A DNA stretch of 64,000 bases from Rhizobium acidisoli (GTDB lineage: Bacteria > Pseudomonadota > Alphaproteobacteria > Rhizobiales > Rhizobiaceae): positions 2,666,001 to 2,730,000 of the forward strand of contig NZ_CP034998.1 in the NCBI RefSeq assembly GCF_002531755.2. The letters are read 5' to 3'. The position numbers and the translations under genes were made by a program. A model generated the notes under the pieces. It made no database searches and was not told the origin of the DNA. It was given only the letters and a program-made list of their open reading frames with translations. Numbering within the stretch: position 1 is the stretch's first letter; each line of letters begins with the position of its first letter. Shown here piece after piece: positions 17,666-53,236 of this stretch.

Positions 17666-17928
17666 TATTGGTTGTGAATTCCACGTGTTTTCAACCAGTT
17701 GGCCATTCGCCATGTTTTCGGCGCATAGGTAAACCGGCCATCGCCGAATTTAACCGCACGTTAAAATCTGTGAACAAAAAAATATCGAATATAATCGATT
17801 AGTTTCAACAGCTTGCCGACAGGCTCTTCGACTTGTCCACCGCGCCCTTCGGCAGCGCAGCATAGAATCCGCTTCCCAACCGACATATTTCCGACATATT
17901 ATCGTCCGGTTAACGCGAGGAGACAGAC

Positions 17929-18006
17929 ATGGGACTCACGCAATCCTTGAATGTTCTGTTGGTCAGTGCAGCGTTTGCTTTCGTCTTGTCCATGCTCTTC
18001 ATCTGA
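17929..18006 (+). CDS. 25-residue single-pass membrane peptide
   Basis: An ATG at 17929 preceded by GAGGAGA (6-base gap) opens a 26-codon frame with product MGLTQSLNVLLVSAAFAFVL followed by SMLFI. Nearly all of it is one hydrophobic helix after a short polar start, typical of bacterial small membrane proteins. Upstream at 17880-17901 is an 11-bp direct repeat (CCGACATATTT, CCGACATATTA), and downstream a strong terminator-like hairpin. So the unit has its own likely control region, ribosome binding site and terminator. It is too short for usual gene finders. Function unknown. The 260 bases before it (from 17666) show no other gene. Confidence 0.65.
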   Translation: MGLTQSLNVLLVSAAFAFVLSMLFI

Positions 18007-18066
18007 GCTGGCTGGGGAAAGCGGAATGACTGGTAGTACCTGAACTCCCCTGATCAATCCGCCAAT

Positions 18067-18102
18067 GAAAAAGCGCATGTCCCGCCCGACATGCGCTTTT
18101 TC
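18067..18102. terminator. Strong bidirectional terminator, 15-bp perfect stem
   Basis: gaaaaagcgcatgtc (18067-18081) and gacatgcgctttttc (18088-18102) pair perfectly around CCGCCC. The A/T ends supply a U-tract in both directions. It serves the small membrane gene on the plus strand and metF on the minus strand. Confidence 0.9.
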
Positions 18103-18121
18103 ACCTTTTCAGCCGTATAGA

Positions 18122-19024
18122 TCAGGCGGCCGCGCCCGCACTTTTTGCCGCCCGGCGGGAAAAGCCGAGATTGTCGAGCACGGCGGAAACCAGCGGCGCG
18201 CGGTTCATCGTGTAGAGATGGAACTCATTGATGCCGCGCCGGACGAGATCCTCGATCTGTTCGGCGGCGACATCGGCTGCGACCTTCGCCCGCTCCTCGG
18301 GCTTGTCGTCGAAGCCGGCGAAGCGCTCATCGAGAAAGGCCGGGATGATCGTGCCGCAGGCGCCGGCGAAACGCTTCAGCTGCGTCAGGTTCTGGATCGG
18401 CATAATACCGGGCACAACGGGGATCGAGACCCCGGCAGCGCGCACCTTCTCCAGGTAGCGCTCGAAATTGTCGTTGTCGAAGAAGAACTGTGTCAGCGCC
18501 CGGTCGGCGCCGTTATCGGCCTTGCGCTTCAGCATGTCGATATCGGCGGCCGTGTCACGGCTTTCCGGGTGCTTTTCCGGATAGGCGGAAACCGAAATCT
18601 CGAAATCACCGACCGCCTTGAGGCCGGCCACCAGCTCGGCCGCATTGGCATAACCGCCGGGATGCGGCTGGTAGGGCGCGCCGGCGCCGCCGGGCGCATC
18701 GCCGCGCAGCGCTACGAAATGCGTGACGCCGACTTTGCGGAACGTCTCGATCATCTGGTGCGTCTCTTCCTTCGTCGCGCCGACGCAGGTCAGGTGCGAA
18801 GCGGTGGCGAGCGGCGTCTGCGACAGGAAACGTGTGACGGCAGTCAGCGTCGGCGCCTTGGTGGTGCCGCCGGCGCCATAGGTCACCGAGACGAAATCCG
18901 GGTCCCAGTCCTGCAGCTTGCTGACCGTATCCCAGAGTTGACCTTCCATCTCCTCCGATTTCGGCGGGAAGAATTCGAAGGAGATCCCGATGTTGCGGCC
19001 GCGTGCCTCGTTATTCAAAGCCAT
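18122..19024 (-). CDS. metF: 5,10-methylenetetrahydrofolate reductase
   Basis: Reduces 5,10-methylene-THF to 5-methyl-THF, the methyl donor for methionine synthase. The 300-residue FAD-dependent TIM-barrel protein begins MALNNEARGRNIGISFEFFPPKSE; the Glu of FEFFPPK is the catalytic acid. VSVTYGAGG, HLTCVGATKEE and FVALRGDAPGG follow as in the family. Its ATG sits one base after the stop of sahR, so the two form an operon with sahR first. Regulation by SahR through the palindrome at 20068 is inferred. metH, the next enzyme, lies at 57.7-61.5 kb with the same operator. Confidence 0.96.
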   Translation of the reverse strand: MALNNEARGRNIGISFEFFPPKSEEMEGQLWDTVSKLQDWDPDFVSVTYGAGGTTKAPTLTAVTRFLSQTPLATASHLTCVGATKEETHQMIETFRKVGVTHFVALRGDAPGGAGAPYQPHPGGYANAAELVAGLKAVGDFEISVSAYPEKHPESRDTAADIDMLKRKADNGADRALTQFFFDNDNFERYLEKVRAAGVSIPVVPGIMPIQNLTQLKRFAGACGTIIPAFLDERFAGFDDKPEERAKVAADVAAEQIEDLVRRGINEFHLYTMNRAPLVSAVLDNLGFSRRAAKSAGAAA

Positions 19025-19025
19025 G

Positions 19026-20051
19026 TCATACTCTCCCGGCAAATGTAGGTTCGGCGCCTTCGCTTAGTTGCGAAGCCATCAGGCGCCTCGGATCGCGCGC
19101 GAGCCAGACGGTGACCGTCAACCCCTGCCCGCTTTGCTGACCCGGATGAAGATCGACGACCTGCTCGACGTCGAGCCCGGCCCTGTGCAGCCAGTCGGAT
19201 ATCGCCTGGTGCGAAAAGCCGAGACGGACATGCGCATGCTCGTCGCGAAGATATTCGAGCGTGTGCGGCGCAAGGTCGATGACCACGAGCCGGCCGCCCG
19301 GCCGCAGCATGCGCGCCGCTTCCGCGATCGCAATCTCCGGCTGGTCGAAGAAATGCAGCACCTGATGGATCGTCACCAGGTCGAAATCCTGGCCCTCGAA
19401 CGGCAGGTTCAGGATATCGGCGTGGCGCACGGTGGCCTTGGTGATGCGGGACTTGTCGAGATTAGCGCGCGCCACGCTCAGCATGTCGCGGCTGGCATCG
19501 ACGCCGATCGCCCGGCGATAGAGCCCCGACAGCAGTTCGAGGATGCGGCCGGTGCCGGTGCCGAGATCGAGCAGCGAATCGATCGGCTGGCTGCCGAGCA
19601 GCCGGATGACGGCGGCGTCGACCTCTTCATCGGCGGCATGCAGGCGGCGAAGCTCGTCCCACTCAGCCGCGTTGCGGCTGAAATAGGCCTGCGCCCGCTC
19701 GGCGCGCTGGCGCTTGACCTGCGACAGCCTTTCGCCGTCGCGAAGCACGGTCGGATCGTTCTCGGAGACATGCTTCAGCAATGCCCGCACCAGCAGGGCC
19801 GCCTTGCCCTCCTGCTTGAGGCGGAAATAGGCCCAGGCGCCTTCCTGGTAGCGTTCGATCAGTTCGGCCTCGCCGAGCAGCTTCAGATGGCGGGAGATGC
19901 GAGGCTGGGATTGGCCGAGAATTTCGGTAAGATCGGTCACCGTCAGGTCGCCGCCGTCGAGAAGCGCCAGAAGACGCAGGCGCGTGGGCTCGCCGGCCGC
20001 CTTCATGACGTCCACCAGCGCATCCAGTCCAAGCTTCAAGGGTTCACTCAT
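19026..20051 (-). CDS. sahR: SahR-type regulator: ArsR winged helix fused to a SAM-methyltransferase-like domain
   Basis: A 341-residue repressor. Residues 10-90 form an ArsR winged helix (GEPTRLRLLALLDGGDLTVTDL, recognition helix QSQPRISRHLKLL). From about 150 there is a Rossmann methyltransferase fold with LLDLGTGTGRILELL and LRPGGRLVVIDLAPH. This fusion matches SahR, a known regulator of the S-adenosylmethionine cycle in Proteobacteria that leaves its operator when S-adenosylhomocysteine binds. It shares an operon with metF, and its upstream palindrome recurs at metH, which fits. The ATG at 20051 is chosen; a TTG at 20066 is possible. Confidence 0.9.
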   Translation of the reverse strand: MSEPLKLGLDALVDVMKAAGEPTRLRLLALLDGGDLTVTDLTEILGQSQPRISRHLKLLGEAELIERYQEGAWAYFRLKQEGKAALLVRALLKHVSENDPTVLRDGERLSQVKRQRAERAQAYFSRNAAEWDELRRLHAADEEVDAAVIRLLGSQPIDSLLDLGTGTGRILELLSGLYRRAIGVDASRDMLSVARANLDKSRITKATVRHADILNLPFEGQDFDLVTIHQVLHFFDQPEIAIAEAARMLRPGGRLVVIDLAPHTLEYLRDEHAHVRLGFSHQAISDWLHRAGLDVEQVVDLHPGQQSGQGLTVTVWLARDPRRLMASQLSEGAEPTFAGRV

Positions 20052-20067
20052 CTTCGATCCGATCAAG

Positions 20068-52288: not shown

Positions 52289-53236
52289 TCAGAACTGGTA
52301 GCGACGCATGCGCCGCTGGATGACGAAAAGATAAAGCGAGACGCCGGCCAGAATGATGAGGAACATCACCGTTGCGATCGTCGCGCCCATCGAGCGGTCG
52401 CCGAGCTGAAGCTGGAAACCGAAGAAGGTGCGGTAGAGCAGCGTGCCGAGAATATCGGTCGACATGTCGGGTCCGGCGAGCGCGCCCTGAACCGTGTAGA
52501 TCAGGTCGAAGGCATTGAAATTGCCGACGAATGTCAGGATCGAGATGATGCCGATCGCCGGCAGGATGAGCGGCAGCTTGATCTTCCAGAACTGGGCCCA
52601 GCCGGTGATGCCGTCGCATTCGGCCGCCTCGATCACCTCTTCGGGGATGCTGAGCAAGGCGGCATAGATCAGCATCATCGGAATGCCGATATATTGCCAG
52701 TTGGAGATCAGCGACACGGCGATCAGCGCCGAGCCGGGCTTGCCGAGCCAGGGCGCGAACAGGAATTTCAAGCCGATGAGATCGAGCATCCAGGGCGCCA
52801 CGCCCCAGATCGGCGAAAGGATCAGCTTCCAGATAAAGCCGACGATGACGAAGGAGAGCAGCGTCGGCAGGAAGATCGCCGCGCGGTAGAAGGCGACACC
52901 GCGCAGCTTCGGTACCGAAAGCAGGGCGGCAAGCGCGACGCCGATCGGGTTCTGCACGCACATGTGGATGGCGAAGAAGATCAGGTTGTTGACGAGCGCA
53001 TTCCAGAAATCATGCGCCCAGCGCGGATCGCCGAACAGCACCTGGAAATTCGCAAGTCCGACGAAGGCCGGCTGACCGTCGACGATATTGTAGAGCGAAA
53101 GCCGAAGCGTTTCGATGAGCGGCAGCACCATGACGGCGGAATAGACGATCACCGCGGGCAGCATGAAGACGAAAATGTGCCAGCGCACCGGGCGCTTGAT
53201 CGGGACGATATCGATCGCGTTGTCGGTTTCGCTCAT
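52289..53236 (-). CDS. CUT1 sugar ABC transporter permease, MalF/UgpA type
   Basis: A 315-residue permease beginning MSETDNAIDIVPIKRPVRW, with about six to seven helices. The EAA-type loop is IPEEVIEAAECDGITGWAQFWKIKLPLILPAIGIIS. The frame runs upstream past 53236 into the RIME-like element without support. The ribosome binding site is weak. It is separated from the binding-protein gene by that element, which may attenuate transcription between them. Confidence 0.9.
   Translation of the reverse strand: MSETDNAIDIVPIKRPVRWHIFVFMLPAVIVYSAVMVLPLIETLRLSLYNIVDGQPAFVGLANFQVLFGDPRWAHDFWNALVNNLIFFAIHMCVQNPIGVALAALLSVPKLRGVAFYRAAIFLPTLLSFVIVGFIWKLILSPIWGVAPWMLDLIGLKFLFAPWLGKPGSALIAVSLISNWQYIGIPMMLIYAALLSIPEEVIEAAECDGITGWAQFWKIKLPLILPAIGIISILTFVGNFNAFDLIYTVQGALAGPDMSTDILGTLLYRTFFGFQLQLGDRSMGATIATVMFLIILAGVSLYLFVIQRRMRRYQF

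Follow-up and report, generated by a model that had tools for sequence, protein, structure and literature searches.

The locus described here lies in a 64-kb stretch of Rhizobium acidisoli DNA, which we refer to as the window, and centers on an intact open reading frame (ORF) of 25 codons that starts with ATG and encodes the peptide MGLTQSLNVLLVSAAFAFVLSMLFI. A promoter-like hexamer pair, a predicted transcript, and a hairpin surround the frame, followed by two genes on the opposite strand (Table 1). Positions 17880-18130 of the plus strand have the look of a compact transcription unit. The ribosome binding site that a first-pass annotation of this DNA had pointed out is readily recognized as GAGGAG. 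With a best 18-residue Kyte-Doolittle mean of 2.38, the peptide has the profile of a lone hydrophobic helix some 18 residues long, a call that derives from hydropathy and not from a dedicated helix predictor. Among the 197 ATG-initiated ORFs of 22 to 30 aa in the window it ranks first in hydrophobicity, in agreement with the single hydrophobic helix proposed earlier, and in all likelihood the product is a membrane protein. The second most hydrophobic of these short ORFs, MFLIILAGVSLYLFVIQRRMRRYQF, is on the minus strand at 52366.

Table 1. Coordinates of the features at the peptide locus (positions within the window)
Feature	Position	Strand	Remark
TTAA-N7-TTAA, candidate CtrA box of full-site form	17750..17764	+	motif form after the accessible part of PMC4287350
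Promoter-like pair TTCCCA / TATTAT, spacer 18	17873..17902	+	5 nt separate the second hexamer from the predicted RNA start
Tandem 11-bp repeat CCGACATATTT/CCGACATATTA	17880..17901	+	copies agree at 10 of 11 positions; the second one is the conserved -10 region
Transcript, 21-nt leader	17908..18099	+	predicted from the Rfam RF02503 Atu_C9 match, model 1-192 of 192
Shine-Dalgarno GAGGAG	17917..17922	+	6 nt before the ATG; aligned in relatives
ORF for 25-aa predicted single-span membrane peptide MGLTQSLNVLLVSAAFAFVLSMLFI	17929..18006	+	intact frame in relatives
CTCCCC in the 3' untranslated part	18045..18050	+	CTCC[TC] motif in relatives
16-bp hairpin, probable bidirectional terminator common to convergent metF	18066..18103	.	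arms covary among relatives
metF (methylenetetrahydrofolate reductase), convergent neighbor	18122..19042	-	Pfam; stop at 18122
ArsR-type HTH + methyltransferase protein	19026..20066	-	upstream of metF, on the strand of metF

The predicted transcript coincides with a match to the Rfam family RF02503, "Rhizobiales sRNA Atu_C9," which scores 222.5 bits against a gathering cut-off of 40. The earlier description of the gene as unannotated therefore needs qualification: no feature lies over the ORF in two public records that annotate metF, but its transcript is already catalogued as an "sRNA." Read as codons, the RF02503 consensus itself yields MGLTQSLNALLVSAAFAFVLSMLFI followed by a stop, one residue off the window peptide. 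The only other match above Rfam cut-offs in the 64-kb window is an RNase P RNA of class A (RF00010, 2209-2606 on the minus strand, 315.8 bits).

The frame was compared across a set of named loci. A peptide pattern spanning residues 7-16 served to pick them, and they are the best 80 of 264 relatives found. Start codon, 25 codons, and stop are kept in all 80, which comprise 14 peptide variants, and neither a frameshift nor an internal stop codon interrupts any of them. In the 47 distinct coding sequences from these best 80 of 264, variable sites fall on the three codon positions as 10/4/23, and any two of their translations differ on average by 2.88 amino acids, compared with 7.61 (minimum 5.66) in 300 column shuffles. 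The dN/dS ratio over the 80 loci is about 0.11. The conserved start, the conserved length, and the codon-wise synonymous variation by which the first-pass annotation had suggested judging the peptide are thus all found in relatives.

Because these loci had been picked by a peptide pattern, we repeated the selection test outside the pattern residues and on loci found by DNA match. Outside the pattern residues, dN/dS in the best 80 of 264 is 0.09. Among the DNA-only loci (the best 30 from 97 genomes that matched at the DNA level, some of these 97 matches spanning the terminator alone), 30 of 30 are intact and 29 carry the identical peptide; dN/dS here, with 13 distinct sequences and both strands read, is 0.014, a value that applies to close relatives. 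The 3' part of the transcript is less conserved than the ORF. By these comparisons the frame is under protein-level purifying selection, and we regard the ORF as almost certainly coding. The observation itself is real, and its conservation sets it above chance.

These results bear directly on the status of Atu_C9. While the RF02503 model matches over its full length, the family is filed as non-coding, whereas selection at this locus acts on the protein; the dN/dS of the frame, the codon pattern, and the presence of an ORF in the family consensus are all at odds with that filing. The RNA filed as Atu_C9 is thus very probably the mRNA of a 25-aa membrane peptide, as judged from sequence comparison. 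A purely non-coding sRNA with an incidental ORF, as the cataloguing implies, is contradicted by the codon-position pattern and dN/dS, and also by the conservation of the peptide in genomes in which the RNA model scores far below its cut-off; we consider this reading extremely improbable, even though the accessible part of PMC5471319, citing Wilms et al. 2012, credits Atu_C9 with "reported roles in growth." In that text the growth label is attached to Atu_C9 in Shewanella and looks like a best-hit label. In our control search with Rfam, a match below the cut-off appears in Bacillus subtilis too. A literature search covering Atu_C9, the locus, and small proteins of the Hyphomicrobiales returned no paper that calls Atu_C9 coding, with a single candidate, SEP6 (see below), and the peptide is not described in the accessible parts of PMC3738593, PMC5471319, PMC5913331, PMC5082802, PMC3927594, PMC10469942, and PMC3616915. 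Coding ORFs inside sRNAs, S. meliloti included, are described as enriched in transmembrane helices in the portion of PMC5521070 available to us.

The peptide is nearly universal in the genus, occurring in 99 of 100 genomes (the window's own included) and in 95 of 95 good ones; the sole miss is an 82%-complete draft. A single match is present in 98 of these 99 genomes, the other one holding an extra partial match at E 0.003. Across the order, which for Rhizobium is Hyphomicrobiales in the record taxonomy, 174 of 397 genomes have a profile match at E <= 0.01, and 67 of 141 genera are represented among them. Some of the counted matches span part of the profile only; a narrower earlier profile had found 134 of the 397 at E <= 0.05. 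As 223 of the 397 genomes give no match at E <= 0.01, the peptide is either not universal in the order or has divergent members that the profile misses. Within the family of the window, 19 sampled genomes carry it, and the two listed without it are 1.5-1.6 Mb in size. The Atu_C9 RNA model exceeds its cut-off in only 9 of the 397 order genomes (the search filters lose weak matches), fewer than the peptide, so the peptide is recognizable further out than the RNA.

In a class-level sample, 3 of 385 genomes match, namely the window's own and two others, one of which spans profile positions 13-27 only; at least four genomes of the order inside this sample gave no match. The remaining one (G687) is a 1.5-Mb genome outside the order with a close peptide, SSSLNALLVGAAFAFIAAMLFI (locus L248, G687:C2:719700-735700), for which our rule found no start codon and whose stretch lacks metF, metH, and the amidase gene discussed below.

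Members of the family are 25-30 aa long and share the signature [RKQ]-[SP]-L-N-x(5)-A-A-F-x-F-[VI]-x-[AST]. In an alignment of 24 members, columns 15, 16, and 18 (A, F, and F) are invariant, and M1 and A14 are nearly so. A larger set of 74 peptides keeps A15 in 70, F18 in 71, A14 in 62, A21 in 57, and N8 in 56; this set was anchored on F16, whose invariance there is by construction, and 2 of the 74 are anchored on the wrong F. Position 5 is R or K in 54 of the 74, while the window's own peptide has Q. When tested, conservation was not significantly concentrated on one face of the helix (p ~0.35).

About 60 nt of 3' sequence separate the stop codon from the hairpin, whose arms (18066-18081 and 18088-18103) pair perfectly over 16 bp around a loop of 6; the terminator-like stem reported earlier is thereby borne out, although its length had been given as 15 bp. 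An A-tract and a T-tract are both present, so the hairpin could end the RNA of the peptide as well as that of metF; a simple terminator scan lists only a minus-strand site. The arms co-change among relatives (for example, GCGCATG/CATGCGC to GCGCATC/GATGCGC). Of the named loci (best 80 of 264), 58 have a terminator-like hairpin no more than 220 nt past the stop, against 0.6 in shuffled sequence, and by our rule a terminator is present in only 16 of 51 order representatives, again against 0.6 in shuffles. In the same 51 representatives, five to six of the six Shine-Dalgarno positions match in 33, compared with 10 when shuffled, counts that lean upward because start codons were partly chosen by their Shine-Dalgarno match.

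Between stop codon and hairpin lies a short pyrimidine motif that raises the question of a second function of the RNA. Among the 55 nt that follow the stop, CTCC[TC] occurs in 68 of the best 80 of 264 loci (6.2 in shuffles), 47 of them reading CTCCT, the complement of AGGAG, and 21 CTCCC. The CTCCCC of the window could possibly act as an anti-Shine-Dalgarno or seed motif. On this basis the transcript could be a dual-function RNA that encodes the peptide and uses its CU-rich 3' part to pair either with further mRNAs or with the Shine-Dalgarno sequence of its ORF, which would also suit its filing as an sRNA and its fold z-score of -2.4. Yet the motif is absent from the three Neorhizobium copies, the Ferirhizobium copy, and those of S. 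meliloti and Shinella, in all of which the peptide stays. The greater conservation of the ORF and the few genomes that pass the Rfam cut-off likewise point away from an RNA function, and the motif counts are not phylogenetically independent. We therefore hold a dual function to be rather unlikely, and favor an mRNA that serves to encode the peptide.

On the upstream side, the tandem 11-bp repeat that the first-pass annotation had counted among the control elements is real, but it does not behave as a conserved operator: its two copies are at most one mismatch apart in 2 of the 80 named relatives and at most two apart in 22 (best 80 of 264; in two of the 80, L085 and L113, the comparison took the wrong copy as its anchor). 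What is conserved is the GACATA of the second copy. Since this copy holds the conserved -10 region, the repeat is the weak part of the proposed set of control elements, and we dropped it as an operator, the first copy not being kept as a repeat in most relatives.

Further upstream, between the EamA gene and the peptide and about 145 nt ahead of the predicted RNA start, the candidate CtrA box is the single occurrence of TTAA-N7-TTAA in the 64-kb window. Full CtrA sites in Caulobacter take this form, according to the accessible part of PMC4287350. Within 300 nt upstream of the ORF the motif is present in 51 of 80 relatives (best 80 of 264), as compared with 0.4% of shuffles, and it is absent upstream of the S. 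meliloti and Shinella copies.

We then consider the genomic neighborhood, as seen in stretches that measure 16 kb, or 8.2-15.9 kb in six cases, from 52 genomes chosen among the positives to span genera, 51 of which are inside the order, L248 being the one outside. Using query proteins assigned by Pfam to MTHFR, B12-dependent methionine synthase, and amidase, we find metF or metH within 8 kb of the peptide in 30 of the 52 genomes, and in 29 of these 30 the gene lies downstream on the opposite strand, though not always as the next gene. By our arithmetic, the chance of finding either of two genes within 8 kb in a genome of 4-5 Mb is about 1% or less. A place convergent to metF or metH is thus a recurrent one for the peptide gene in the sampled stretches. 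Neither gene is within 8 kb in 22 of the 52; an amidase-family gene is upstream on the same strand in 11 (L200, L201, L204, L235, and others), and all three genes are absent in 16. The named Rhizobiaceae loci share the order EamA transporter (where found), peptide, convergent metF, and ArsR-methyltransferase gene, the exception being the stretch of named locus L139, from which the EamA, metF, and ArsR-methyltransferase genes are all absent. In six matching records of a plasmid collection, none has a feature over the peptide (the gene tables of this collection are incomplete), and metF is seen annotated in only two of the six. In S. meliloti, metF is presumably the gene with locus tag SMc01843.

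Given a short ORF that closely follows a promoter and precedes a hairpin, one could also think of a leader peptide, or of an upstream ORF that regulates a downstream gene. Either would call for a gene on the same strand, and there is none behind the hairpin, where metF lies in convergent orientation. As, moreover, the peptide sequence itself is conserved, we see next to no likelihood in a leader function.

Comparison with known families returned no credible relative of the peptide in Pfam (of 24 members scanned, a single one gave E 0.07 and another E 0.36) or in the PDB, and no match in PADLOC (24 members scanned) or NCBIfam (3 members scanned). By its general properties, the peptide can nevertheless be set beside two groups of small membrane proteins. 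KdpF, CydX, AcrZ, and MgtS are single-span inner-membrane accessory peptides; they resemble the window peptide in length, in their single hydrophobic helix, and in being encoded by small genes missed by annotation, but no sequence relation to it was found in Pfam, NCBIfam, or the PDB. TisB, Ibs, and ShoB are toxin peptides of type I toxin-antitoxin systems, and MGLTQSLNVLLVSAAFAFVLSMLFI is like such membrane toxins in its size, its hydrophobicity, and its sRNA-like transcript.

For these three features, the accessible part of PMC5521070 offers comparable cases. Unlike these toxins, the window peptide is mostly single copy, spread across the order, near-universal in its genus, and found in a recurrent chromosomal place, which disfavors a toxin. 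Nor is an antisense partner recognized: the minus strand at the locus has no Rfam match except a palindromic echo of the terminator, although promoter-like matches exist on it at 17747-17808. A toxin of this type is, in our estimate, improbable.

A closer counterpart may exist in Sinorhizobium meliloti 2011, for which the accessible part of PMC10117765 describes SEP6 (sORF6), a peptide of fewer than 30 aa with one predicted helix and conservation in Hyphomicrobiales. According to the same text, SEP6 is translated, with support from Ribo-seq and Western blotting, and turns up in the P100 fraction. In S. meliloti the orthologue of the window peptide, MGLTHSLNVLMISAAFAFVAVMLFV, has 25 aa and a hydropathy of 2.44, and our peptide agrees with SEP6 in size, single helix, and conservation in Hyphomicrobiales, as far as these are given in that part of PMC10117765. 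We are slightly inclined to equate SEP6 with MGLTHSLNVLMISAAFAFVAVMLFV, the two being likened by description and not by sequence or coordinates. If they are orthologous, the translation of SEP6 and its presence in the P100 fraction would speak for a membrane peptide here too.

Together, these comparisons show a conserved frame, start, length, Shine-Dalgarno sequence, and terminator, together with a wide spread and a mostly single copy. The proposal of a 25-residue membrane peptide gene with its own transcription unit is accordingly upheld by the intact ORF, the conserved frame, the promoter-like pair, and the hairpin. We propose that the locus probably holds a monocistronic gene whose product is an inner-membrane microprotein of 25 aa with a single span, and that the RNA known as Atu_C9 is its mRNA. 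The peptide would be translated in the strain of the window and would insert with its N-terminus in the cytoplasm, a topology suggested by the R or K common at position 5, where its own sequence has Q. Its helix may then pack onto a multi-pass membrane protein through the A-A-F-x-F center and small residues; given the non-significant helix-face test, this packing model draws on the A-A-F-x-F center only. Rather than a toxin, the peptide would be an accessory or regulator that is permanently in place, a role to which we assign about even chances from the sequence. Against this reading stands that MetF and MetH, the recurrent neighbors, are soluble enzymes. In a broader and doubtful picture, an old order-wide microprotein family would sit in a "non-coding" Rfam entry, with a dual-function mRNA under cell-cycle control by a CtrA site in Rhizobium, and its place near metF or metH would tie the methionine/SAM cycle to a membrane complex.

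The order, to which plant symbionts belong, has the gene in 67 of its 141 sampled genera. Neither Pfam nor NCBIfam has a match for it, and it goes without an annotated feature in two public records that do annotate metF. It is too small for the size limit of gene finders, and the RNA has been filed as non-coding. Recognizing it would correct the Rfam entry RF02503 and would provide a testable small-protein family with a strict A-A-F-x-F core. A screen for codon-wise selection is suggested for other alphaproteobacterial "sRNA" families.
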